Positions 13,327 through 40,842 are shown, counted from the stretch's first letter. The stretch: 48,905 nt of DNA from Mollicutes bacterium (GCA_003551005.1 PULR01000008.1:1-48905), one strand, 5' to 3'. Notes: a model not told the origin generated them from the sequence alone. Numbers and translations: made by a program.

Positions 13327-14160
13327 ATGCACGTGCACCGACTGGCTGCTTTTGCCGATGGGAATCAAGGCGGTAACGAAGCCGGCGTCGTCCTTGAAGC
13401 GGAGGATTTGACGACTGATAGAATGCAGGAAGTCGCCGCGGCCACCGGGTATTCGGAGACAGCTTTTTTGCTTGAGGCTGAAGACGCCGATTACCGGGTC
13501 CGCTATTTTACTCCGAAACAGGAAGTCGATGTCTGCGGGCATGCGACATTGGCCCTGCTTTGGTTGTTGTTTGCTAGCGGCCTCGAGTGTGGCCGCTGTA
13601 CTTTGAAGACGAAGGCGGGTCTCATTGAAGGTGTCGCTGCAGCCCAACCCGAGCTACGCCTGCCGACGCCTGCCGTCCGGCTTATAGACCCGTCTGAGGC
13701 GGAACCTTATGCAACGCTTTTTCCTGTTCCCTTCACGCATTCCGCCGTCGTCGACAGCGGTGTGAAGGAAGTGTATCTGCGGATCGACGAAAGCTTTAGA
13801 CTGGATGCACTAGCGCCTTCTACACAGGCGCTGACAGCACAACTTATTCAAGATGGACTAGCCGGCGCCGCCGTCTATGCCCTAGGGGAAGTCGATGACA
13901 GGGGTTATCAGCAGGTACAGCTGAGAAACTTCCTGTCTGCAATCGGAATCGTGGAAGAGAGCGCGACGGGGACAGCGGCTGCCTCCCTTGCACAACTTTT
14001 ACATGAACAAGGGTACGGGAGCCGCTATCTTTTTACACAAGGACATGCGCTGAAAAAACCTTCGCGGCTGCATGCAACCGTCGGCAGGGATGCGGTTCAC
14101 GTCGGTGGTGCGGTCCGCCGTCTCGACACAGCCACCCGACAGACGGAATCGGGTGGTTGA
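13327..14160 (+). CDS. PhzF-family isomerase/epimerase-like protein
   Basis: A 277-residue protein of the PhzF (diaminopimelate-epimerase-like) fold. Marks are G-G-N-E-A-G-V-V near residue 17, the catalytic-glutamate segment G-Y-S-E-T-A-F, D-V-C-G-H-A-T-L-A in the first half and E-S-A-T-G-T-A-A-A in the second half. PhzF proper isomerises trans-2,3-dihydro-3-hydroxyanthranilate, but most genomic homologues have unknown substrates, and no phenazine genes are here. Start ATG 13327 is set by AGGAGTG 6 nt upstream. The next gene starts 47 bp downstream with its own -10 element. Confidence 0.88.
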   Translation: MHVHRLAAFADGNQGGNEAGVVLEAEDLTTDRMQEVAAATGYSETAFLLEAEDADYRVRYFTPKQEVDVCGHATLALLWLLFASGLECGRCTLKTKAGLIEGVAAAQPELRLPTPAVRLIDPSEAEPYATLFPVPFTHSAVVDSGVKEVYLRIDESFRLDALAPSTQALTAQLIQDGLAGAAVYALGEVDDRGYQQVQLRNFLSAIGIVEESATGTAAASLAQLLHEQGYGSRYLFTQGHALKKPSRLHATVGRDAVHVGGAVRRLDTATRQTESGG

Positions 14161-14173
14161 GCGGCTGCAAAAG

Positions 14174-14182
14174 TGGTAAAAT
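14174..14182 (+). promoter_or_regulatory. Extended -10 promoter of the coiled-coil/cls/ABC run
   Basis: TGGTAAAAT is a TG-n extended -10 element 25 bp before the coiled-coil gene. Confidence 0.55.
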
Positions 14183-14207
14183 AGATATTAACGGAAGGGG
14201 TGTATCC

Positions 14208-16934
14208 ATGTCGAGAGATGAAAAGGATCGCGTGAAGGGTTTCCAAAGCTGGTTGGATGCCTTGTACCAGCCGCTCTTCAAGCAATGGACGAACACGGGA
14301 GAAACCCTTGATAAGTTCGAGGATCTGCATCGGGCGAACGATGGGCGGATCGACCGCTCACTCGATGCGAACATCGACACGTACCGACAGAATCTCGAGC
14401 AGATTGAAAAAGAGCATGCAAAGCAAGCGAAGGCCATCGACGAGACCTTCGACAAAAAACGTAAAGGCCTCGAAAAAGCGGATGAGACAATCAACCGCCG
14501 TCATGCAGAGCGGCTTGCGGAAATCGAGGAGGTCTTCGAGCAGAAACGCTCACACTGCACCTTGAAGGACGAAAAGACCCAGGTCGTGTATGAGCGTGCA
14601 ATCAAAGCCGCGGAGGAAGACACACTACGAAAACAAACGGACGCTGAATCAATGGTGGATGAAGCGATCGAGCGCCACAACGCCAACATCACCGAGCTCA
14701 TGCGTGAAAACAATATCAAGCATGCAGTCAATGATAATCGCTTGCAGCTTGCGCGCGTCGAATACGATGTCGCACACGCGAAGCTTGAAAAGGACATCGA
14801 GAGCAAGCTTGAAGCAATCAAGCAAGAACGCAGCCAGCTCGAATCGGATTACAAAACGCAGGTGGCGGATCTTGAAAAGACCCGCCGTAGAACCCTCGCT
14901 CCGCACGATGAAGGCATACGCAAGTTGAAATCCGAACACAAGGCTGAGCGTGAACGGCTCGAAAGCGAACTCGAAGAAGCGACGAACAAGCAACGTAGCT
15001 ACAAAAAAGAAGCGGAGAAACTCGGCGATCAGCAGACCATCGACCGCGTGGAAAAGAAACTGAAGGAGATCAGACGCGACCACCGGGATAAGAAACGAAG
15101 TTGTTCCGAGCGTCAGAATCAGGAGCTAGAAGAAAAGAAGCACCAACGCGATGAGGCGGTGAAGCAGATCGACGACCAGCTGCTTGAACTCAAGGCGGCT
15201 TTCCTGCAGTCGCTTTCGGAACTGCTGAAACGCAAGCACCATCTGGAAACCGAAAATTTCATCCAGCTTGATGAGACGAACACGGCGTTCAACCTTGCCG
15301 ATTCCCGTCATCGCAAGGACCGACGGGTGTTGGAGCTTGAAAACGATGTGCAGACCCTCAACATCAACCGCGCGCTTGAAGAGGCCCGTGAAGAGAACGA
15401 TTACCTCACCAAGCGCTCAAAACCCGAAGGCGACCTGGAGATCAACGAAGCCTGGCTCCAGCACAAGCTTGATGAAACCGATCACCAACGGACCCTCGAG
15501 GTCGCCCGGGCCAAACGTTCACGCGATGAAACGGAGGCGACCATCACCCGGGATCTGCGTCTGAAGGAGAACGACATCGCCCGGCGCCGGCTTCAGCACA
15601 AGCGATCCTACGACCTCGAACATCTCGAGATACAAAAAGCACTGCGCATATACAATCAGGACTACGAAAACGAACAAACCATCCTCGATCATTTCCTCAA
15701 ATACGCAAAAAACCACAACGCCTTGAAAAATGAATATGCGAATGCGCATCGTCCCGATTTCGATGCCGAAAGCGATCAGCGGACCCAGCTGCGCATCGAA
15801 CGCTTCGAAGCGATGCAGGAAGATGCGCGGCGGCAGCACGAAAACATCGTCGCGCGCATCGAAACCATCAGCGCCCGCGAGAGAAACCTGCATTTGCGGG
15901 CTTACGAGGAAGTCCAGACCGCCAGCGACGCTTCCCTCGAGCGGCTGAAAGAACAGCACGAGACCACGGCCAGGCAGGATATGGCCCGACTCGAATCGCT
16001 GCATCCCCGTCGCGACCGCCGCAGGATCGCCCGCATCCGCAAGGAGAACGAGGAACGCGAAGCCTCGCGACAGCGCGCCTATGAAGAGAGGAAGCGCGAG
16101 CTCCGCGAGCGTATCCGCCTGCACGAGGACATGCTAAAGAGCATCGACGAGAAGCGTCGGCAGTCGCTCGAAGAGGCCAAGACTCTGCTCAACCACGCAC
16201 TCGATGAACTTGACAACTTGATCGCCGATGCCAGACGCCAGGCTGAAGAGGAGAAGCAGCGTCTGCAGCGGGGTTTCGAAGAAATCAAGCGCCGCGCGTC
16301 TCTTTTCAACAGCTTTCAAAAAGACCGTCGCGAGGAGACTCTCCAGCAGGCGAAGACGTATTTGAACGCCCGCATCCACCGCATGAAGAACCGCAAATCA
16401 AGACTCGACAATCGGCATCAGACCCAGCTTGATGCGCTTGAGACCGAGTGGCAGGCCTATAGCTCCGACGTCGACAAACGCACCCGGGAGATGGAAGCGC
16501 AATACCAGCAAGCGCTTGAGGACCTTGAGAGCGAACACCAGAAGCGTCAGTCCCAGCTCAAGGAAGCCCACGAAGAAGAAAGCCGAAGGCTCAGGCGCTA
16601 CATGGAACATCTCGGAGAAAAACACGACACCGCCCTTGAGGAAATCAAGGAGCGCACTGAGCAGGAGATCACCCGCTATTTCGAGGAGAAATCGCGTCTC
16701 GAACGTGAATACGAAGCGGAATCCGACCGCTTAGAAAAAGCGCATGCGCGGTTTGTCGAGGAAAAACGAAAAGAAGAGGAAGCCTTCGCGGGTGAAATCA
16801 ATCGGACCATGGAAAAGCTGCATCAGCATATCGCCAAGCAGCCCGCTTCGCGGATGCGTTCCCGGGAAGCCGCCTCACTCGTGCCGCTGCTTCTGGGTGA
16901 ACGCAGCCTGGAAACCAGCCAGGGAAGCTCTTGA
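14208..16934 (+). CDS. Giant coiled-coil protein of unknown function
   Basis: A 908-residue protein made almost wholly of charged alpha-helical sequence rich in Glu, Lys, Arg, Gln and Leu, with very few Gly or Pro. There is no signal peptide, membrane segment, Walker motif or SMC-type hinge. Breaks with Pro/Gly occur near residues ~240 (L-A-P-H-D-E-G), ~420 (K-P-E-G-D), ~515 (R-P-D-F-D) and ~600 (H-P-R-R-D), dividing the rod into about five segments. The first ~45 residues, with several Trp/Phe/Tyr, look like a small head; the last ~30 lose heptad character. I do not recognise a family; a filament or scaffold protein is inference. GGAAGGGG precedes ATG 14208. Cardiolipin synthase follows after 50 nt without a terminator. 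Confidence 0.75.
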   Translation: MSRDEKDRVKGFQSWLDALYQPLFKQWTNTGETLDKFEDLHRANDGRIDRSLDANIDTYRQNLEQIEKEHAKQAKAIDETFDKKRKGLEKADETINRRHAERLAEIEEVFEQKRSHCTLKDEKTQVVYERAIKAAEEDTLRKQTDAESMVDEAIERHNANITELMRENNIKHAVNDNRLQLARVEYDVAHAKLEKDIESKLEAIKQERSQLESDYKTQVADLEKTRRRTLAPHDEGIRKLKSEHKAERERLESELEEATNKQRSYKKEAEKLGDQQTIDRVEKKLKEIRRDHRDKKRSCSERQNQELEEKKHQRDEAVKQIDDQLLELKAAFLQSLSELLKRKHHLETENFIQLDETNTAFNLADSRHRKDRRVLELENDVQTLNINRALEEAREENDYLTKRSKPEGDLEINEAWLQHKLDETDHQRTLEVARAKRSRDETEATITRDLRLKENDIARRRLQHKRSYDLEHLEIQKALRIYNQDYENEQTILDHFLKYAKNHNALKNEYANAHRPDFDAESDQRTQLRIERFEAMQEDARRQHENIVARIETISARERNLHLRAYEEVQTASDASLERLKEQHETTARQDMARLESLHPRRDRRRIARIRKENEEREASRQRAYEERKRELRERIRLHEDMLKSIDEKRRQSLEEAKTLLNHALDELDNLIADARRQAEEEKQRLQRGFEEIKRRASLFNSFQKDRREETLQQAKTYLNARIHRMKNRKSRLDNRHQTQLDALETEWQAYSSDVDKRTREMEAQYQQALEDLESEHQKRQSQLKEAHEEESRRLRRYMEHLGEKHDTALEEIKERTEQEITRYFEEKSRLEREYEAESDRLEKAHARFVEEKRKEEEAFAGEINRTMEKLHQHIAKQPASRMRSREAASLVPLLLGERSLETSQGSS

Positions 16935-20309: not shown

Positions 20310-20334
20310 AAAAAAGGACGCACAATGTGCGTCC
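20306..20334 (-). terminator. Intrinsic terminator of the GGDEF gene (minus strand)
   Basis: The stem GGACGCAC/GTGCGTCC with a 3-nt loop is followed, on the minus strand, by eight T. It also touches the stop codon of the plus-strand permease gene. Confidence 0.88.
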
Positions 20335-20337
20335 GAT

Positions 20338-21288
20338 TCAACGCGTTCCAAAACGCCCGGCATCGGGCGCTTCCTGGCGACGCGTTTTTTTGTGTGCATA
20401 CATGCGTCTATCCGCGGTTGAGAGCAACCGCCGCAGATGTTTTCCATCGAGGGTTCTGCCGGCTTCGATGTCCACTTCGCCGATCGCAATGCTCAGGCGG
20501 TCGTGAAGGTTCTTTAGTTCTGTCTCGATGTCGTCGATGGCGCGCTTGAGCGTTGCGGGCGGGGTTGTATGGAGGACGACGAGGAATTCGTCCCCGCCGA
20601 TCCGGTATACTTCTTCATGCTTGTCAATTTCGCTCTTGAGGGTCTTGGCGAAACGTTTCAACGTTTCGTCCCCGCGGTCATGGCCGAAGTGGTCGTTGAC
20701 TTCCTTGAAGTGATTGAAATCCAGCATCAGCAGCGTTCCAGCCTCCTCCGGGGTCAGATCTTCATAATCCTGAAAGAAGGCCCTCCGGTTGGGAAGCCCG
20801 GTGAGGAAGTCGGTGCGGTGCGCGAGGCGTAGCGCTTCATTTTTCTGCTCGAGGCGCCGGCGGATGCTGATGAGTTCGCTGTTCAGTTTTCCCATCTCTT
20901 CGAAAGCCTTCTCATCCGGCGATGGCGAAGACCGCTTGCGTGTTTCATTGATCTGACGATTGTTCAGTTTCAGCATCTGCTCGACGGCCGTGACCTCAGA
21001 GGGCTCTTTCTCGCCGAGCACGAAGAAGCGACCCTCATCATGTACAAGGCTGATGCGGGTGTTGATTCGTTCCTCTCCGCCTGAGAAGGGCAGGTCCATC
21101 CCATAGCAGGCCCCATGCTTCCGGGCGGTCTCCATGCCGTGAATGAATCTTTCCCTGGCATCCTCCGCGATATAATCGCCGAGCAGCGCACCGCTTTCGA
21201 ATGGAACACCGGTGCTGTTTTCCACGATGCGGTCGATGGTATTCTCCTTGACGACAAGGAAGAAACCGTCCTTCGCGTCACTAGTCAT
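20338..21288 (-). CDS. GGDEF diguanylate cyclase
   Basis: A 316-residue cytosolic protein. Residues 1-100 look like a PAS-type sensor, ~101-155 a coiled linker, and ~156-316 a GGDEF domain. The domain has D-x-L-T-G-L-P-N-R-R, the metal-binding D-F-N-H-F-K-x-V-N-D segment and an intact G-G-D-E-F signature (231-235), so it should make c-di-GMP from GTP. The R-x-x-D inhibitory site before GGDEF is missing its Arg (S-E-I-D). Start ATG 21288 lies 8 nt inside the end of the upstream cobalamin-binding gene, with AGGTGA 8 nt before it: the two are translationally coupled. Confidence 0.92.
   Translation of the reverse strand: MTSDAKDGFFLVVKENTIDRIVENSTGVPFESGALLGDYIAEDARERFIHGMETARKHGACYGMDLPFSGGEERINTRISLVHDEGRFFVLGEKEPSEVTAVEQMLKLNNRQINETRKRSSPSPDEKAFEEMGKLNSELISIRRRLEQKNEALRLAHRTDFLTGLPNRRAFFQDYEDLTPEEAGTLLMLDFNHFKEVNDHFGHDRGDETLKRFAKTLKSEIDKHEEVYRIGGDEFLVVLHTTPPATLKRAIDDIETELKNLHDRLSIAIGEVDIEAGRTLDGKHLRRLLSTADRRMYAHKKTRRQEAPDAGRFGTR
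20354..20390 (+). terminator. Possible plus-strand terminator of the ABC exporter run
   Basis: The hairpin CGCCCG-GCAT-CGGGCG (20354-20369) is followed 15 nt later by seven T, and AACGCG/CGCGTT could extend the base of the stem. It lies inside the 3' end of the opposite-strand GGDEF gene, so it may be coincidental. Confidence 0.35.
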
Positions 21289-22237
21289 CAATCAGTTCAC
21301 CTGCCTTCTGCACGGCGTCGGAGAGGTTTTCTCCGTATGCGTCCGCATCGAGTTTTTCCTTCAGAGACGGGTCCTGGTTGAAGGGCTGTCCGCCGACCAG
21401 GATCGGGATGTCCCGGGTCCGCTCGTCGCCCTTGATGCGTTGAATGACATCCTCTAAAGCGGTGAGTTCGATCGGCAGCGTGATGCCGAGCGCGATGAGG
21501 TCCGGCGAATGAGCAATAACAGCATCGACAATCTCCGATTCAGGGAGGTTGCCGCCCAGGTAGTGCGTCCGGTAGCCTTTGTACTCCAGCACATCGGCGA
21601 CCATGCGGATGCCGATCTCATGCGGTGCCTCTCCGGGGGCCGCGGCCAGGACGAGTCCTCCGTGTTTCGGGGTGGCGAACAAGTCGGGGTAATATTGCGA
21701 CATCGCGTATTGCGTAGAGGCGGTGATGTAGTGTTCGGTGGCGATGGAGATGCGTCCAGTCTGCCAGAGATAGCCGGTCTCGTAGAGTATCGGCTGGAAA
21801 ACGTGCAGATAGACCTGATCAAGATTGTGTGTGTGTTTCCATTCGAGACTCATCGACAGCGCCTTTTCAGCCGAACCTTCCAGCAGGGCGTCGAGGAATT
21901 CCCTGGCCTCGCTCGCAAGCGGGGAGTCCTGGATGGCATTGTGCGGGGGCGTATCAATCGGGAACTTTTCCTTCGGCAAATTCGCCCCATGAACGATTCG
22001 AAAGAGTTCCTTTACGAGTGTCCAGAACTGTTTGCGTGTCAGATTGAAGACGTCGAATCGGCTTGCCAGCCAGCTCAAATAGGCACGGAAGAGTCTGTTT
22101 GACTGGTAACGCCTCGAAACCTCCAGATATTCCGCAAAAGGCTGTATATCCAGCATCAACAGCTCCCGCTGACGTTTATTGTCGAACCAGGTCGACGGGA
22201 GGACTTTTTCCAGTTGTTCTCTACGGATTTTGTTCAT
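21281..22237 (-). CDS. Cobalamin-binding, CarH-like sensor protein without HTH
   Basis: A 318-residue protein. Residues ~1-100 are helical and unassigned. Residues ~103-190 form a four-helix cap with W158-x9-E168-H169, the motif that contacts the adenosyl group in CarH/LitR photoreceptors. Residues ~195-318 form a Rossmann-like B12-binding domain with H206-E-I-G209 (the HxxG half of D/ExHxxG), then V-L-E-Y-K-G and Y-L-G-G-N-L-P. The acidic residue lies three rather than two positions before His206 (E-A-P-H). There is no MerR-type DNA-binding domain, so output is probably protein-based, most likely via the coupled GGDEF gene. AGGGGGGA precedes the start. Divergent from a cobalamin adenosyltransferase gene. 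Confidence 0.88.
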   Translation of the reverse strand: MNKIRREQLEKVLPSTWFDNKRQRELLMLDIQPFAEYLEVSRRYQSNRLFRAYLSWLASRFDVFNLTRKQFWTLVKELFRIVHGANLPKEKFPIDTPPHNAIQDSPLASEAREFLDALLEGSAEKALSMSLEWKHTHNLDQVYLHVFQPILYETGYLWQTGRISIATEHYITASTQYAMSQYYPDLFATPKHGGLVLAAAPGEAPHEIGIRMVADVLEYKGYRTHYLGGNLPESEIVDAVIAHSPDLIALGITLPIELTALEDVIQRIKGDERTRDIPILVGGQPFNQDPSLKEKLDADAYGENLSDAVQKAGELIDD

Positions 22238-22264
22238 GCGGAATCCCCCCTTGTCTGTAACTTT

Positions 22265-22273
22265 ATTCTAACA
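22265..22273 (-). promoter_or_regulatory. Extended -10 promoter of the cobalamin sensor/GGDEF pair
   Basis: On the minus strand TGTTAGAAT, 28 bp before the start codon at 22237. Confidence 0.6.
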
Positions 22274-22342
22274 CGCGGGAAGCAGGAAAAGAAACGAATA
22301 CAAAAAGGAGCCGGGTTTCACCTACCTTCACTGTTCCTCTCG

Positions 22343-22351
22343 TGCTATAAT
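22343..22351 (+). promoter_or_regulatory. Extended -10 promoter of the adenosyltransferase operon
   Basis: TGCTATAAT is a perfect -10 hexamer with a TG extension, 25 bp before the start codon. Confidence 0.65.
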
Positions 22352-22375
22352 GAACAGGAAAGGAGTGTGGATTCG

Positions 22376-22909
22376 ATGCCGATCAAGAACCTTCGTCATA
22401 TCTCGACGACCAAGGGAGACCAGGGCGTCTCAAGAAATTATTCAAATGAATCCCTGCCCAAGGATGACGCACTTTTTGAAACATTGGGAACTATCGATGA
22501 ACTGAGCGCCTTCCTGGGTCTTTCATTCCACTATACCCGCTATGAGCACATCAAGACGGTGCAGGATACCCTGCAGGCGATCAACTCCCTCATTGCGACC
22601 TCGCCTTCGCAGAAGACGCAATACGACGGGCTGCGTCAGATTAACGAGCAAGATATCCAATTCATTGAAGAACAAGAGGAGAAACTGCTTGTCAACCGGA
22701 CGATCGAGAACCGCTTCTACCTGCCGGGCAGTGAAACGACGCTGGCGAACGCCTATTTCGATTACGCCCGGACCATCGCCCGCCGTGCCGAGCGGACACT
22801 CGTGCGCTTCATCAATGAGAAGGGCCGCGAAGACCTGTCCTATCCCCGGACTTATCTGAACCGGCTCAGCGATCTGCTTTTCCTACTTGCACGAAACTAC
22901 GCAATATAA
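22376..22909 (+). CDS. pduO: Cob(I)alamin adenosyltransferase, PduO type
   Basis: Transfers the adenosyl group of ATP to cob(I)alamin to make adenosylcobalamin. The 177 residues from ATG 22376 (AAAGGAGTG upstream) show the PduO/MMAB signature: T-T-K-G-D-Q-G near the N-terminus, the K-D-D segment and G-T-I-D-E-L-S-A-F-L-G, then F-Y-L-P-G, A-R-T-I-A-R-R-A-E-R, and R-L-S-D-L-L-F-L-L-A-R at the C-terminus. The usual L-P-G-G is L-P-G-S here. It heads an operon with a DegV gene 17 nt downstream and is divergent from the cobalamin-binding sensor, the likely user of its product. Confidence 0.93.
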   Translation: MPIKNLRHISTTKGDQGVSRNYSNESLPKDDALFETLGTIDELSAFLGLSFHYTRYEHIKTVQDTLQAINSLIATSPSQKTQYDGLRQINEQDIQFIEEQEEKLLVNRTIENRFYLPGSETTLANAYFDYARTIARRAERTLVRFINEKGREDLSYPRTYLNRLSDLLFLLARNYAI

Positions 22910-22926: not shown

Positions 22927-23778
22927 ATGCCAAACATCGGCATCGTCACCGACACCAACGCTTGCCTGGATTATTTCGACCATGATTATGATATTCCGAT
23001 TCTGCGTTCCATCATACACCTCGGCGAGGAGGAATACCTCGACCACGTCGAACTCCGGGCTGAAGATTTCTATAAGGCTCTCGAATCCGATCCGGACCTT
23101 TTCCCGAGAACCTCCCAGCCTCCGCTCGCCAAGATGGTCGAGACGTACGAGACCATGCGTGAGAAAGGCTTTCAACAGCTGATTTTCGTGACTATCTCCT
23201 CGCAGATGAGCGGCATCCATGATGCCGCGAAAGTCGCCGCCGAGCAAGTCGAGGATCTCGAGGTGCATGTCTTCGATTCAAGATCCGTCGCCTACCCCCA
23301 GGCCAAGATGGCGCTCCACGCGGCAGACATGGCCTCACAGGGGGAATCGCTCGAGACGATTCTCGCCGAGCTTGAACGCATCCGGGCAGGCAACCACATC
23401 TACTTTGCCGTCGACACGCTCGCCTATCTTGTCAAGAACGGCCGTCTCAGCAATGCGCAGGGATTCTTCGGCAGCATGCTGAAGATCAAACCGTTGCTGC
23501 ACATCTCGAAAGCGGGCGTCGTCGAGAATGTCGAGAAGATCCGGACCTTCCGTCGCGCCGTCGACAAGGTTGTGGAGCGTTACCTTGAAGAAACAGCTGG
23601 CAAATCCGTCAGCCCCTTTATCTGCCATGCACACAACCCTGAAGTCCGTGAACGCATTGAAAGTAAGCTGAAAGCAGCCGACCCCTCCATCGAATCCGTC
23701 TTCAGCATGCCCCTCACGCCGGCCGTCGGTGCGCATGCCGGTCCGAAAGCCATCGGGCTCGGCTATATCGAGCACTGA
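22927..23778 (+). CDS. DegV-family fatty-acid-binding protein (paralog 1)
   Basis: DegV/FakB proteins bind a fatty acid and present it to the kinase FakA, which phosphorylates it for lipid synthesis. The 283 residues show the family layout: N-terminal D-T-N-A-C-L-D-Y, the T-S-Q-P loop near residue 62, T-I-S-S-Q-M-S-G, D-S-R-S-V at the domain border, L-V-K-N-G-R-L-S and L-K-I-K-P-L-L, and a C-terminal domain ending in H-A-G-P. AAGGAAGGAGAG precedes the ATG. Lies 17 nt after the adenosyltransferase gene and 8 nt before a membrane protein gene. No FakA gene is in the window, so the partner must be elsewhere. Confidence 0.93.
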   Translation: MPNIGIVTDTNACLDYFDHDYDIPILRSIIHLGEEEYLDHVELRAEDFYKALESDPDLFPRTSQPPLAKMVETYETMREKGFQQLIFVTISSQMSGIHDAAKVAAEQVEDLEVHVFDSRSVAYPQAKMALHAADMASQGESLETILAELERIRAGNHIYFAVDTLAYLVKNGRLSNAQGFFGSMLKIKPLLHISKAGVVENVEKIRTFRRAVDKVVERYLEETAGKSVSPFICHAHNPEVRERIESKLKAADPSIESVFSMPLTPAVGAHAGPKAIGLGYIEH

Positions 23779-25011: not shown

Positions 25012-27036
25012 TCACCGGTAGAACTGATCGAGCAGTCCTTGCTTGATAAGGGTGATGGCGTGGGCTGCGATATCGGCGTCGAACTGGGTGCCGCTGTAGG
25101 TTTCAAGTTCGTGTAGAATTTCCTCTTTTGAGAGTTTACGCGCGTAGGATTGTTCCCGGGCCATGGTCGCGACGGCTTCTGCGACAGAAAGAACGGCCGC
25201 TTCTTTTGGTATCTCTTCGCCCTTCAGCCCTTCGGGATAGCCTTCCCCGTCCGGCCGTTCGTGGTGGTGTAGCACACTCTGGGCGATGCGGCTCAGAATC
25301 GTGGCGTCTCCGAGCAGGTCCGCACCGAGCTTGGGATGTGCCTGCATGGCTTCGTATTCCGCCAGGGTGAATTCGCCCGCCTTTTTGACGATGTCCGGGT
25401 CGACGCCCAGCTTGCCGATGTCGTGGACGATGCCCGCCCAATAAAGCTCCCTTGCACGCTCCGGAGTATAACCGGCGGCCCTGGCGAGCGGTTCGGCCAA
25501 AGCGGCGACATCCTCGCTGTGGCGGCGTGTGTAGTCATCATAGAGGTCGATGGTCCGCAACGCGCTCTGCACGAGGCTTGACCGCATCCGGTCGTGTTCT
25601 AAAGCGGCAGTCTCCGTCTCATAGAAACTGTTGAGGAACAGCTGCATCGACTGGAAATAATCGAGCATGAAGGCATCAATACGTGCCGTGCTGTTCTGAG
25701 CGATGTCGAAGCTCATCTCGCAGCTGATTTCCTCTGTGAGCTTGACGCTCATCAGGATGCTTTCCTTGATTCTCGGGTTTCTTTCGTCGTAGGTGCTGTA
25801 TTCTTCTTTCAGACTTTCTTGCAGGCGTTCTTCCGCGTTCTCGATATGGACGGGCTCGTCTAGATTGAGAATCCAACTTTCGATGTTGAACCGGATTGAA
25901 TTCAGATGCTCGATATCGTATCCCACCGCATCGATGAATCGGACTTCATCTTCCGTGCGGATCAAGCAGGCACCGTAGTCGATGCGGCTGAAGAAACGAT
26001 AGATGATGTGAAACAGATTGCGTGCTTGATCCTCGCGCTGCTCTTCATCAGAGACCTCCATCTGCATGGAGAGGGAGAAGAGCCGCTCGACTGCCTCGAC
26101 CAACTGTTCGCGACGGTGTTTTTTTTCATAGAGTCCGCGTTGTCTTTGTTCGATGGCATGACTGATGAAGCGCACGGCGAAGAAGGTGGTGACAATCAGG
26201 ATGAGGAAGAGATTGACGCCGAACGTGTAGCGGAAATACCCGATTTCGAGGGTGAACGGCGGAAAGAGCGCCATCGCCGTGAGAAAGATGGTCGTATTGA
26301 CGATGAAGGCGCGGTAGCTGAACCGTCTCGCAACAAAGATGACGACCGGGAGATAGAGGAAATTGTGTGCATCATAGGTCAAAAACGGGATGTTCTGATT
26401 GAAGAACAACATCGTCAGGAAACCGAAACCCACATACAAAAGCAACTCGCGTGTCGTGCCATAACGGTCCGGAAGCGGGTCCATCCAGATCGCGAGGGCG
26501 ATGGGCATGGCAAAGACCAAAAGCGAGAAGAAATCCCCGGCCGCCCAGACAAAAAGACTCTCGATGAAGGCCTCGGTTTCAACCGCCCCCAGCAGCAATA
26601 GTCCGGTGTTGCCAAGCACTGAGTTGAGAAGGGTGAAGGCGAGAAACCCCGACAGAACAGCCTTCAGCGACAGCCAGCAGATTTCCAGCCTGGCGCTTTC
26701 AGGATTTCTGGCTATCAGATAGGCGCCGACGAGTGCAGAAATCATCCCGCTCAAGGCAGAAAGCAGAACCTGAAAGATCAGCCGCGGGAGTTCGACGCCT
26801 TGAATCAAAAACAAACTGAACGCATAGCCAAGAACCAACCCGGCACCGATGTGAAGAAGCATCCGTCTCTCGAAACGCCCAATCAAGAAACCCAGCGAGA
26901 CCCCCGCTGCGGGCCAGATGATGCTGGCATCGAATTCTCCCAGGGTGAAAGCATGGCCGAGGGGGATCGCGACGGCTGTGAGGGCTGTTGCGAGCCAGTA
27001 TTCTTTGTAGGTGTACACACGAGCGAGGATGTCCAT
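25012..27036 (-). CDS. MASE1-HD-GYP membrane protein
   Basis: A 674-residue protein. Residues ~1-290 are a MASE1-type membrane sensor with eight or more helices and the W-P-A-A-G-V-S-L-G-F motif after helix one. Residues ~300-490 are a cytosolic sensor-like region, and ~495-674 an HD-GYP domain with H-D-I-G-K-L-G, H-H-H-E-R and D-G-E-G-Y-P. The helix that normally reads V-A-D-x-x-x-A-M has V-A-E, and the R-P-Y motif is replaced by Q-S-Y, so catalytic competence is uncertain. Start ATG 27036 has GGAGGGG 6 nt upstream. Same general build as the HD-GYP protein ending at 11207, but a different membrane family. Confidence 0.88.
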   Translation of the reverse strand: MDILARVYTYKEYWLATALTAVAIPLGHAFTLGEFDASIIWPAAGVSLGFLIGRFERRMLLHIGAGLVLGYAFSLFLIQGVELPRLIFQVLLSALSGMISALVGAYLIARNPESARLEICWLSLKAVLSGFLAFTLLNSVLGNTGLLLLGAVETEAFIESLFVWAAGDFFSLLVFAMPIALAIWMDPLPDRYGTTRELLLYVGFGFLTMLFFNQNIPFLTYDAHNFLYLPVVIFVARRFSYRAFIVNTTIFLTAMALFPPFTLEIGYFRYTFGVNLFLILIVTTFFAVRFISHAIEQRQRGLYEKKHRREQLVEAVERLFSLSMQMEVSDEEQREDQARNLFHIIYRFFSRIDYGACLIRTEDEVRFIDAVGYDIEHLNSIRFNIESWILNLDEPVHIENAEERLQESLKEEYSTYDERNPRIKESILMSVKLTEEISCEMSFDIAQNSTARIDAFMLDYFQSMQLFLNSFYETETAALEHDRMRSSLVQSALRTIDLYDDYTRRHSEDVAALAEPLARAAGYTPERARELYWAGIVHDIGKLGVDPDIVKKAGEFTLAEYEAMQAHPKLGADLLGDATILSRIAQSVLHHHERPDGEGYPEGLKGEEIPKEAAVLSVAEAVATMAREQSYARKLSKEEILHELETYSGTQFDADIAAHAITLIKQGLLDQFYR

Positions 27037-27066
27037 CAAAACCCCTCCAGGTTGTCTTCGTCTTTC

Positions 27067-32488: not shown

Positions 32489-32512
32489 AAAGGCGCCCGG
32501 CCGGGCGCCTTT
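32489..32512. terminator. Bidirectional palindromic terminator
   Basis: A perfect 24-bp palindrome (12-bp arms, centre CCGG) with A runs on the left and T on both outer ends. It serves the ABC pair and the convergent photolyase gene, whose stop it abuts. Confidence 0.8.
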
Positions 32513-33875
32513 ATAGTTTCTTGCTGTAAGCGATGTAGCGGTCGATGTCGAACTTACGCCGGAGACCCGCCGCACTCAGGGGTCGCAGCTTGCCGATCAC
32601 CGGCCGTTCCTTGAAGGGCTGGTCGTGCCGTCCGAAGCACCAGGCGACCCCGGCGTAGCTGTTGGGGTCCCTGCCGTCGAGGAAGTATTTGTTGTTCAAG
32701 TGCAGGATGGTCTCGTAGGCCGCCTGCGGGGAAGGGCTCCAGTGGATGATCATCTTTCCCCAATACATCCGCATGTAGTTGTGCATATAGCCCGTGTGGA
32801 CCATTTCCCGCATCGCCGCGTTGAAGTAGGGATCGTGCGTGTCGGCGGCCTCGAGCTCCTCGAGGGTGTAAAGATGCTCGCGCGCATCGTCAGCGTGTTC
32901 ACGAAGGGTCTGGTGGGCCCAGTGGACCGTCATTGACTCGAACGTGTCGTAGCCCGCTTGATAGTATACGAAGTTGTGGGCGAGCTCGCGGCGGACGAAG
33001 AGCTGTTCGAGAAACGCCTCCGAGGCCTTGAGCGGAACGCCGTCAAGCGCGGCCCGCTCTTCAACTCGGCGGTGGATGGTCAAAGGCGAGAGATGTCCGA
33101 AATGCAGATAGGGGCTCAGTCGGCTGGTCAGATGCTTGGAGGGGTCGTTGCTTTCATGATAGCGCGGGAGACCTTCGTCAATGAAGGTCTCGAGGCGTTT
33201 CAAGCCTTCCCGTTCGCCACCGTGGAAGTAGATGCTCTTCTTCACCGAGGTGTCGACATCCAGCTGTTCCATCTGCGTCTCGATATATTCATCGATGATG
33301 GTCGGTTCGTTCGTGCGTCTCACCTTGAGCTGGGGGATTGTTGCTTCCTCGAGATAGCTATCCAGAGCTTTCAGCAGTTTCGGGCGCAAGGTTCGGGCCG
33401 CGTATTCAACTTTGTCGCTGACGGCTTCGATGGGGACGATGAGGTCGCTTTCGACTTCCACGGCGTGGAGACCTTCGCGTCGCGCGGCTTGAGCGACTGT
33501 CTGACGGGAGGCTCTCAATTCCCTCAGGTAGGGCTTGTCCATGATCAGGCAGGCGGCCTCGCCCAGGTGCCTCGGAAGCACGTCGGCGAATCCGCCGACT
33601 TCGATGACGAACTCGGCCCCCAGCTCCCTTAGCGAGGCGTTCAGAGATTTCAAGCCTTCAAGAAGAAAGGCGTAGTGACGTTCGTTGGCATCCTTGAACT
33701 CTCCGGTGAGGACGAACAGCACCCGCAGCGGGAGCCCGATACGGTTGGCCTCCGTCGCGGCATGTTCGAGAGCGAAGTTGTCCGTGACACGCTGGGAGCG
33801 TTGCATCCAGTAAAGGACATAGCTTCCCGCTTTGATGCTGGCAGAAGAGACTGTCTTGAGCCGTCTGGGGTGCAT
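32511..33875 (-). CDS. phr: Class II CPD photolyase
   Basis: Repairs cyclobutane pyrimidine dimers with blue light and reduced FAD. The 454 residues from ATG 33875 (AAAGGA 9 nt upstream; a TTG at 33884 would abut the site) match class II photolyases. The N-terminal domain has Y-V-L-Y-W-M-Q-R-S-Q-R and N-E-R-H-Y-x-F-L-L-E-G-L. The FAD domain has Y-M-R-M-Y-W-G-K-M-I, L-D-G-R-D-P-N-S-Y-A-G and a K-F-D near the C-terminus. Class II enzymes are less usual in Bacillota than class I. Monocistronic, convergent with the ABC pair. Confidence 0.93.
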   Translation of the reverse strand: MHPRRLKTVSSASIKAGSYVLYWMQRSQRVTDNFALEHAATEANRIGLPLRVLFVLTGEFKDANERHYAFLLEGLKSLNASLRELGAEFVIEVGGFADVLPRHLGEAACLIMDKPYLRELRASRQTVAQAARREGLHAVEVESDLIVPIEAVSDKVEYAARTLRPKLLKALDSYLEEATIPQLKVRRTNEPTIIDEYIETQMEQLDVDTSVKKSIYFHGGEREGLKRLETFIDEGLPRYHESNDPSKHLTSRLSPYLHFGHLSPLTIHRRVEERAALDGVPLKASEAFLEQLFVRRELAHNFVYYQAGYDTFESMTVHWAHQTLREHADDAREHLYTLEELEAADTHDPYFNAAMREMVHTGYMHNYMRMYWGKMIIHWSPSPQAAYETILHLNNKYFLDGRDPNSYAGVAWCFGRHDQPFKERPVIGKLRPLSAAGLRRKFDIDRYIAYSKKL

Positions 33876-33962
33876 GGTATGCAATCCTTTCTTGTCTCAG
33901 TCTTTCAAGGGCGGTTCAAAAGGCGTTGTAGCCTGCGGGCTCCGTCAAGGTGCAACAGCTTC

Positions 33963-37814: not shown

Positions 37815-38669
37815 ATGAGCAAGATCGGCCTTGTTGTCTGCGGCAACTCGGGAATCGACTACATCGACCATCCTTATGACATCCGCGTCATCCGTTCGAC
37901 GTTGATCTTCGGCGAAGAGGAGTATACGGACTTCGTCGATATCCAGGCGGATGCTTTTTATCAAATGCTTAGAGAAAACCCGGATCTGCACCCGACCACG
38001 GCTCAGACGGCGACGGGGGAGATCCTTGATACGTATGAGAAGCTCAAGAAAGACGGGTACGAGGAGATTATCGTCGTCACCATCTCCGCGAAACTCAGCG
38101 GCACCTATGAAGGCGCGCGGATCGCCGGCAACATGCTTGAAGGCGTGCCGGTGCATGTCTTCGATTCCAAGTCGGTCGCCTACGGAGAGGCCTACATGAT
38201 TTTGAAGGCCGCCGAGATGGCACAAGCGGGACACGGGGTTCCCGAAATCATCGACACGCTCTCGCAGATCCGCGAAAACCAGGGCCTGTACGTCTCCGTC
38301 GACACGCTGGAATTTCTCGTCAAGAACGGGCGGCTCTCGGGTGTCGGCGGCTGGGTCGGCACGAAACTCAAGATCAAGCCGATGCTGCATCTGACGCGGG
38401 AAGGGCGGATTGAACCGCTTGAGAAGATCCGCAGTCGCAAGAAGGCCATCAACCGCATCGTGGACCGATTTCTTGAAGAGCGCCGCGAAGCGGATCTCGA
38501 ACCCTTCATCGTCCACGCGAACGCCTACGATGCGCTCGAGGATGTGCGGAGCCGCCTGCAGGAAGCCCGCCCGGAAATTGGCGAAGTGAAGGATTATCCA
38601 CTCACGCCGGTGGTCGGCGCCCACGCAGGACCGGGCGCGCTTGCGATCGGTTGGATTGTCAAAGAATGA
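37815..38669 (+). CDS. DegV-family fatty-acid-binding protein (paralog 2)
   Basis: A 284-residue FakB-type protein: N-terminal S-G-I-D-Y-I-D, T-A-Q-T in the fatty-acid headgroup loop (the first paralog has T-S-Q-P), T-I-S-A-K-L-S-G-T-Y, D-S-K-S-V, L-V-K-N-G-R-L-S and I-K-P-M-L-H-L. The C-terminal domain ends with H-A-G-P-G-A. TTGGAGGG precedes the ATG. It has its own strong promoter with a FabT-like operator, which ties its expression to fatty-acid supply by inference. Different FakB paralogs commonly prefer different acyl chains. Confidence 0.94.
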   Translation: MSKIGLVVCGNSGIDYIDHPYDIRVIRSTLIFGEEEYTDFVDIQADAFYQMLRENPDLHPTTAQTATGEILDTYEKLKKDGYEEIIVVTISAKLSGTYEGARIAGNMLEGVPVHVFDSKSVAYGEAYMILKAAEMAQAGHGVPEIIDTLSQIRENQGLYVSVDTLEFLVKNGRLSGVGGWVGTKLKIKPMLHLTREGRIEPLEKIRSRKKAINRIVDRFLEERREADLEPFIVHANAYDALEDVRSRLQEARPEIGEVKDYPLTPVVGAHAGPGALAIGWIVKE

Positions 38670-39536: not shown

Positions 39537-39967
39537 AAGACATCGACAAGTTCGTCCAGCGCGTATTCAAGGAATCTCCCCCCAAGGACCAAAGCGCCGA
39601 AAAACTCTCGGAGATGCTCAAGGAGAAAGTCGAGGACCTCAAGGAAGAAGGCTACAGTGAAGCACAGGCCATTGACCGGGCCATCGGAGAATTCGGCGAA
39701 GCCGAAGACTACCACGACCCCGCCCTCGACCGCGAGAAACGCCGGCATCAGCGTTTTTTGACAATCAAGCGCCACCGCAACGCGCTGCTTTTCGCCGCGC
39801 TCGCCTCACTGCTCATCATCAGCATCCTCCTGCTGGTGAACTTCGTGCTCCTTCGCGACCATGAGACCCTCTCGCACCCCTGGTCGCTGATTGTCTCAAT
39901 CGGTGTCTTGTTCTGGCCGCTCAGTCTGTTGTACCGACTCTTGAATAAAAAGGATGATCTCCCATGA
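39533..39967 (+). CDS. HAAS-domain (PadR-associated) membrane protein
   Basis: A 144-residue protein. Residues 1-~70 form the helical HAAS/permease-prefix domain (F-V-Q-R-V-F, then L-K-E-E-G-Y-S-E-A-Q-A-I-D-R-A-I-G-E-F-G). Two hydrophobic helices follow at ~83-107 and ~115-136. Such proteins are typically regulated with and by the neighbouring PadR. ATGA overlaps couple it to PadR upstream and DegV downstream. Cellular role unknown. Confidence 0.88.
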   Translation: MKDIDKFVQRVFKESPPKDQSAEKLSEMLKEKVEDLKEEGYSEAQAIDRAIGEFGEAEDYHDPALDREKRRHQRFLTIKRHRNALLFAALASLLIISILLLVNFVLLRDHETLSHPWSLIVSIGVLFWPLSLLYRLLNKKDDLP

Positions 39968-40842
39968 AGAAAACCGCTGTCAGCGCTGTGAGCACCGGAT
40001 GTCTGGATTATCTGGACATCGCACCTGAAAATCTCTTTATCGTCCGCTGCAAGATCATCATGGGCGGAGAGAGCTACGACGACTACGTCGACATGGATGC
40101 GGACAGTTTCTACCGCGCCATCAAGAGCGACTCCGATCTGGTCCCCACCAGCTCGATGCCCTCGACGGGCGAGATGCTCGAAACCTTCGAGACAATCGAG
40201 AAGGCCGGCTACGAAGCCGTCATCTTCAACACCATCTCCACCGCCCTCTCGGCGACCTACCAGAACGCACAGGTGGCCAGGGAAAGCTATGAAGGCGAGC
40301 TCGAGATCCATCTCGTCGACACCAAGAACGCCGCCATCAGCGAAGGGTTCCTGACCCTCGAGGCCCTGCGATTGATCGAGGCCGGGGAGGCCCCCGACAC
40401 GATCGTGCCCTATCTCGAGCGCCTCGCCCTCTCGCGGAAGCAGTATTTCATGGTCGACAACCTTCGTCTGCTCGTCAAGAACGGTCGCCTCTCGGGAGCG
40501 AGCGGATTCATGGGGCGGATTTTGAAGATCAAGCCCATCCTCGAGGTCAACGACGAAGGCAAGATCGTTCCGTTCGAGCGCATCCGCACCCGCAAACGCG
40601 CGCTCGATCGGATGGTCGAGCTCATCCTGGAAGATCTCAAGACGCTTGATCACGTCGTCCTCACCTACGATACCAGCGACAACCAGGAAGGCTACGAATA
40701 CGTCCGCGGGAAAATCGAGGAAGTCCACCCCGACATTCCGGCCTACGCCGCCCCGATCACCCCCGTCATCGGCGCGCATACCGGACAGGGGACCGTCGGC
40801 GTGGCCTATTTCGACCTGGCCTCCGCTAAACCCCCGAAATAA
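39964..40842 (+). CDS. DegV-family fatty-acid-binding protein (paralog 3)
   Basis: A 292-residue FakB-type protein with G-C-L-D-Y-L-D, T-S-S-M-P in the headgroup loop, T-I-S-T-A-L-S-A-T-Y, D-T-K-N-A (where the others have D-S-x-S-V), L-V-K-N-G-R-L-S and I-K-P-I-L. It is the most divergent of the three. AAAGGATG lies before the ATG, which overlaps the HAAS gene stop (ATGA). Last gene of the MarR-PadR-HAAS-DegV operon. Confidence 0.93.
   Translation: MKKTAVSAVSTGCLDYLDIAPENLFIVRCKIIMGGESYDDYVDMDADSFYRAIKSDSDLVPTSSMPSTGEMLETFETIEKAGYEAVIFNTISTALSATYQNAQVARESYEGELEIHLVDTKNAAISEGFLTLEALRLIEAGEAPDTIVPYLERLALSRKQYFMVDNLRLLVKNGRLSGASGFMGRILKIKPILEVNDEGKIVPFERIRTRKRALDRMVELILEDLKTLDHVVLTYDTSDNQEGYEYVRGKIEEVHPDIPAYAAPITPVIGAHTGQGTVGVAYFDLASAKPPK

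Follow-up and report, generated by a model that had tools for sequence, protein, structure and literature searches.

A 48,905-nt stretch of DNA from a Mollicutes bacterium (GCA_003551005.1, PULR01000008.1:1-48905; hereafter the window) encodes what is probably a split photoreceptor system, in which a photoglobin-B12 sensor and a dedicated diguanylate cyclase operate under the control of adenosylcobalamin (AdoCbl) and light. A broader reading, to which we give an even chance, makes the pair one instance of a widespread two-protein module. Stand-alone photoglobin-B12 sensors of bacteria and archaea would control a separate histidine kinase, phosphorelay kinase or cyclase via one shared docking linker; outputs would have been exchanged while sensor and linker were kept. 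The Izemoplasma-type branch (an inferred name for the group of order-level relatives) would be bilin-less, using AdoCbl alone, with cyclic-di-GMP as its output.

The two genes lie on the - strand, with the sensor gene running from 22237 to 21281 and the GGDEF gene from 21288 to 20338. A strong intrinsic terminator 3' of the GGDEF gene indicates that they form a bicistronic unit. ORFs and Pfam place both genes and their strand as in the original prediction, and the 8-nt overlap it described is present, given an ATG start of the partner gene at 21288; a possible TTG start lies 3 nt upstream at 21291. A scan of the window recovered no B12 riboswitch or other known RNA at the gathering threshold, and a promoter scan from sequence alone gave nothing above chance. 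The features of the locus are as follows.

20316-20334, - strand: intrinsic terminator immediately 3' of the partner gene (stem of 8 pairs followed by 8 T)
20338-21288, - strand: partner gene, about 316 aa, with predicted PAS-like, coiled-coil and GGDEF diguanylate cyclase regions (Pfam, AF2, Foldseek)
20374-20814, - strand: GGDEF domain of the partner, active-site motif at 20584-20598 (Pfam, alignment)
20830-20988, - strand: partner-specific linker, consensus INNEQxNxLR ... LNNELVNxQRELAKKN (profile from histidine-kinase partners)
21010-21267, - strand: PAS-like domain of the partner (AF2 secondary structure b-b-a-a-b-b-b)
21281-22237, - strand: sensor gene, 318 aa, photoglobin-like and B12-binding domains (Pfam, PDB phmmer, AF2 model, Foldseek)
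21287-21655, - strand: Rossmann B12-binding domain with axial H206 (E203-A-P-H206) and G228-x-x-x-P232 (Pfam, AF2 model, alignment)
21620-21631, - strand: E-A-P-H, acidic residue at -3 rather than -2 before the axial His, in this copy only (alignment of relatives)
21674-21916, - strand: B12-domain four-helix cap carrying the adenosyl contacts G155-x-x-W158 and E168-H169 (invariant in 69 relatives; signature of PMC11796333)
21920-22237, - strand: N-terminal photoglobin/phycobiliprotein-type domain, residues 1-106, helices at 6-83, chromophore Cys absent (L27) (family profile)
22376-22909, + strand: pduO adenosyltransferase, divergent neighbour outside the conserved unit (Pfam, NCBIfam, synteny)

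The original prediction had counted the divergent PduO-type adenosyltransferase as part of the switch. The gene is real (Pfam E 6e-34; NCBIfam PduO_Nterm 100.4 bits, slightly below the cut-off of 108.45) and is the only PduO-type adenosyltransferase found in the genome, so AdoCbl can be made; its membership of the unit is not supported. Two genomes of the same genus (G002, G004) and one of the same family (G028) keep the order cardiolipin synthase, ABC ATPase, ABC permease, pduO and DegV intact with no sensor pair, leaving a permease-pduO gap of about 50-95 nt. In the window, the pair sits between the ABC permease and pduO, and seemingly does so in G001 as well, where the contig ends about 227 nt past pduO. 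No pduO was found near the sensors in 20 related neighbourhoods or in the loci of 80 wider relatives. Because the cluster is kept without the pair and other sensors have no pduO nearby, the adjacency appears coincidental. It is best read as insertion or retention of the pair next to an older pduO cluster that in addition supplies AdoCbl to enzymes such as glutamate mutase and ornithine aminomutase; the genome contains ORFs resembling both, assigned by eye from sequence. The window also carries three DegV-like genes on the + strand (22927-23778, on which Pfam was run, 37815-38669 and 39964-40842) and a 925-aa, highly charged coiled-coil ORF at 14157-16934 (+) that is conserved beside the cardiolipin synthase gene in G001 (34% identity).

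The sensor and its probable chromophore

The sensor matches the Pfam families B12-binding (E 4e-17) and B12-binding_2 (E 7e-9). Its closest solved structures by phmmer against the PDB are SasPcob (8j2x/8j2w), CtMerR (8jbs), AbPcob (8j2y) and CarH (5c8a), and its AF2 model (pLDDT 95) has SasPcob 8j2w as the top Foldseek match. The protein contains G155-x-x-W158-x9-E168-H169 and E203-A-P-H206-E-I-G. G155, W158, E168, H169 and H206 are identical in 69 of 69 aligned relatives, and P232 in 66; an invariant W158/E168/H169/H206 motif across this set is far beyond chance. The CarH/LitR-like W-x9-E-H adenosyl-contact motif originally read in the 318-aa protein is thus confirmed, and the protein does lack a DNA-binding domain, as neither Pfam nor NCBIfam detects a MerR domain. 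On these residues, the sensor is predicted to bind AdoCbl.

The light-response signature of B12 domains consists of GxxW, EH, GxxH and GxxxP (PMC11796333). GxxW, EH and GxxxP are present in the sensor; its Gly-to-axial-His spacing is G-x-x-x-H, compared with GxxH in the CarH-type signature, and the whole sensor family has this one additional residue. The W-(9/10x)-EH motif of photocobilin B12 domains is also found. The strict E/D-x-H form at the axial His is absent, with Ala (A204) at position -2, and we therefore call the protein photocobilin-type and not a strict photocobilin member. An acidic residue occupies -2 in all 80 wide relatives, and among 27 order-level sequences, the window copy included, it is present in 26, the window copy being the sole exception; a small number of contigs belong to both sets. 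The one-residue shift, previously thought to distinguish the protein from described members, is real and confined to this copy, with E/D-x-H in all other scored relatives, and alignment marks it as an idiosyncrasy of the window copy and not as the sign of a distinct class. The window sensor also diverges fast, with 41% identity to the same-genus copy compared with 50-75% for neighbouring annotated genes. Together with A204, this suggests that its cobalamin site may be altered.

The N-terminal ~100 residues were considered unassigned in the original prediction. They are photoglobin-type by family profile. A profile built from 60 N-termini matches the bilin domain of SasPcob (residues 227-319, E 2e-9), then that of AbPcob (E 7e-6), then mostly phycobiliproteins, and the window N-terminus matches the family profile with E 4e-7 when it is itself left out and E 7e-6 when its genus is left out. 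These matches identify the sensor as a photoglobin-B12 protein whose domain order is reversed relative to SasPcob. A DNA-binding role for the N-terminus was rejected, given the outcome of the domain scans and the similarity to phycobiliproteins.

Roughly one third of the wide relatives have Cys where phycobiliproteins carry theirs (C-x-x-D). It occurs in no Izemoplasma-type relative examined, and the window has Leu. The Tyr-His of the family motif is lost in the window sensor as well, and no haem oxygenase was found in the genome (1.35 Mb assembly, 97% complete). With the bilin Cys missing and haem oxygenase not found, AdoCbl is probably the sole chromophore of the sensor, and bilin is probably not used in this organism.

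Two further observations concern sensor-like genes and their surroundings. A small gene with an ABM domain lies just upstream of the sensor in about 14 of 80 loci (including L078, L080, L083, L090, L092, L103, L110, L123, L134 and L151). This domain, Pfam PF03992 as confirmed for L080, belongs to the fold class of IsdG-type haem-degrading enzymes, and the gene could provide the sensor with a chromophore derived from haem. Elsewhere the genome encodes a second, short (~211 aa) B12-binding protein with W-L-E-H and D-E-Y-H-E-L-G (L005:1228-1860, + strand, contig G000:C19), adjoining an FtsX-like ABC exporter. Similar proteins (L033-L035) point to an apparently widespread separate family in the order.

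The partner cyclase, its linker and their conservation

The partner is predicted to be a GGDEF diguanylate cyclase with an intact active site. Its GGDEF domain matches Pfam with E 2e-31, and the motif that the original prediction had recognised is accompanied by the surrounding catalytic residues (RIGGDEF, DFNHFKEVND, GHDRGD). The RxxD product-inhibition site (I-site) is absent from the alignment, with DKHE in its place. The AF2 model (pLDDT 87) has a PAS-like topology at residues 8-93, followed by two long helices and the GGDEF domain, and Pfam PAS finds no match in the protein. The best Foldseek hit is a LOV-activated diguanylate cyclase (8c05), with SiaD next. The genome carries 15 GGDEF loci, and a search for PilZ effectors in it returned no match. 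About 4 kb from the cyclase gene, the window encodes an HD-GYP-type HD_5 membrane protein (25012-27039, -) that is likely a cyclic-di-GMP phosphodiesterase.

Some sensor match occurs in 65 of the 101 genomes searched, and in many of these it covers just the B12 domain of a different protein. Conserved linkage of sensor and GGDEF gene, which the original prediction had set beforehand as a test of itself, is found at both scales. Among the 20 best-match neighbourhoods, two were not scored for both genes owing to a contig end or ORF calling. In all 18 remaining Izemoplasma-type loci, the sensor gene is followed immediately by a GGDEF gene in the same orientation, and in most of them the two overlap. 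When whole genomes are compared with the window GGDEF protein, the top match is the sensor-adjacent protein in 11 of 12. For the wide relatives, the best 80 of 371 from a motif scan of genome contigs, an output gene follows immediately downstream in 70 (59 scored as kinases and 11 as GGDEF). Pfam identifies two of these 59 (L079, L112) as PAS-GGDEF proteins instead. HisKA/HATPase, response-regulator and Hpt domains were confirmed by Pfam in sampled kinase partners. These 80 relatives span Bacillota, Balneolota, Bacteroidota, Chloroflexota, Pseudomonadota, Thermodesulfobacteriota, Spirochaetota, Lokiarchaeota, Methanolobus and others. On a quick tree of the sensors, those with the same type of partner group strongly together, and the partner has switched between kinase and cyclase at least twice. 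Within the taxonomic order of the window organism, the pair also occurs as a second paralogous group (L063, L065-L070), whose cyclases have SGDEF or AGDEF instead of GGDEF; G004 has two copies.

Kinase and cyclase partners have a linker in common. We described it with a profile of 69 positions whose training set consisted solely of 25 histidine-kinase partners, GGDEF proteins being excluded. Among the ORFs of the genome's 15 GGDEF loci, the window cyclase is the sole match (E 3e-6), and all Izemoplasma-type cyclase partners match too. Across the 80 loci, the profile picks out the gene next to the sensor in 75, of which 50 lay outside the training set, along with one gene slightly further from the sensor and none of 30 non-adjacent histidine kinase or GGDEF genes. 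In a genome-wide search of 30 relatives, 22 of 24 matches are sensor-adjacent cyclases; the other two are a weak match in a coiled-coil protein and an orphan cyclase of the same build in G016 (PAS-like-linker-GGDEF, L158:3305-4270, -), which has no sensor gene beside it. Seven of eight genomes without a sensor match also gave no linker match. An earlier re-trained profile had taken in stray PAS segments and matched other GGDEF proteins; it was rejected and rebuilt without them. Given how widely the pairing recurs, the cyclase is very probably the dedicated partner of the sensor. A profile trained on kinases that singles out the adjacent GGDEF protein also points to a dedicated partner, and the linker is their likely contact site.

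Proposed mechanism and alternative readings

We propose that the sensor binds AdoCbl between its four-helix cap and Rossmann domain and would recognise the cyclase through the coiled-coil linker between the PAS-like domain and GGDEF. Green or blue light would split the Co-C bond of AdoCbl, and the resulting change in sensor shape would alter its fit on the linker. This could in turn alter the geometry of the GGDEF dimer and hence cyclic-di-GMP synthesis, which light would most likely raise, though the sign of light control is not readable from the sequence. We infer the contact between the proteins, light as the signal and the direction of regulation from the features described above. Light is a plausible input: the sensor carries GxxW, EH, the axial His and GxxxP of the published light signature, and the organism has genes for a DNA photolyase (window 32511-33884, -) and, elsewhere, a heliorhodopsin (G000:C10:44604-45362, L156), which are independent signs that the organism meets light. 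Several observations count against the proposal: this copy has A204 and diverges fast, many relatives come from anoxic or dark places, and G016 has a linker-bearing cyclase with no adjoining sensor.

The same two-protein module might instead sense how much cobalamin is available or in which form (AdoCbl-bound or apo), which we regard as less likely. Cofactor supply would matter to an organism with AdoCbl-dependent enzymes, many relatives live in the dark, and AbDPcob has lower cyclase activity with mere AdoCbl binding than as apo protein (PMC10979010). However, the W, EH and GxxxP that the sensor retains have been published as contacts to the adenosyl group and within the dimer in light-responsive domains, the photolyase and the heliorhodopsin point to light exposure, and the riboswitch scan of the window was negative. 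A sensor that is degenerating or binds a different ligand, leaving the cyclase to be regulated by its own PAS-like domain, would fit the lost acidic residue at -2 and the fast divergence. This is unlikely given a long intact ORF with normal codon-position composition, the retention of all other signature residues and the maintained overlap with the cyclase gene.

It is quite unlikely that the sensor is a photocobilin in the full sense, with a bilin as second chromophore for sensing red light. Its N-terminal domain shares ancestry with the SasPcob biliverdin domain, where binding takes place without a Cys, and a third or so of the relatives keep the Cys of C-x-x-D; set against this are the missing haem oxygenase and the loss of both Cys and Tyr-His in the window, with Cys lost throughout the Izemoplasma-type relatives examined. 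An ordinary corrinoid methyl-carrier protein beside an unrelated cyclase would share the B12-binding fold and a weak NCBIfam similarity to MtgC and MtbC, but no NCBIfam model reaches its cut-off, W-x9-EH and the photoglobin domain are present, and no methyltransferase gene was identified beside the sensor. The conserved pairing with signalling genes already contradicts this last reading, which is extremely improbable.

Relation to known systems

The AdoCbl- and light-controlled pair that we favour has close relatives among characterised proteins. Photoglobins, the family described by Schneider et al. in 2022, reportedly include globin-B12 proteins associated with prokaryotic signalling domains and predicted as light-sensing bundles. 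That study is cited in PMC10151467 and PMC10979010. The original prediction had taken CarH, which works through a light-broken tetramer, as the best analogue. Photocobilins are closer, and in the fused AbDPcob, inhibited with AdoCbl in the dark, light already activates cyclic-di-GMP synthesis more than 10-fold (PMC10979010, 2024). Control of cyclic-di-GMP by a B12 photoreceptor is therefore known. Separate photocobilins also alter the activity of an isolated cyclase in trans in vitro; the function of stand-alone photocobilins is described as less clear, and they were tested only on a borrowed cyclase domain (PMC10979010). As far as the searched literature shows, with the 2022 photoglobin study compared by its abstract and citations alone, the new elements are a dedicated partner that is encoded separately and carries the linker, the switching of outputs between kinase and cyclase, and an Izemoplasma-type branch that probably does without a bilin.

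In dozens of genomes, those of cultured Paenibacillus, Fodinibius and Azospirillum among them, these loci identify the natural partner of stand-alone photocobilins. They also supply a short linker where the two proteins would probably meet, which makes the function of such proteins directly testable. B12 photochemistry would further be tied to cyclic-di-GMP in Mollicutes-related bacteria with small genomes, and the pair offers compact two-part optogenetic tools.

The window sensor shares with CarH/LitR and CtMerR (PMC11796333) the B12-binding fold and the AdoCbl signature residues GxxW, EH, axial His and GxxxP. It differs in having no DNA-binding domain, in G-x-x-x-H versus G-x-x-H and in an output that would be an enzyme acted on in trans. 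SiaC-SiaD (PDB 7e6g) offers a parallel in mode of action only: a separately encoded protein acts on a diguanylate cyclase, and SiaD is a fold neighbour of the window cyclase, whereas SiaC is not a cobalamin protein. The photocobilins SasPcob and AbDPcob (PMC10979010; PDB 8j2w/x/y) have both the B12 domain with W-EH and axial His and a globin-like bilin domain, and AbDPcob places a GGDEF domain under light control. Unlike SasPcob, the window sensor has its photoglobin domain before the B12 domain. It also departs from photocobilins in lacking the bilin Cys and a haem oxygenase, in its E-x-x-H, and in that its cyclase has a gene of its own, which overlaps that of the sensor and encodes a PAS-like domain and the conserved linker as well. 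By analogy, the window pair would be a natural two-protein version of AbDPcob and of the experiment with separate photocobilins.
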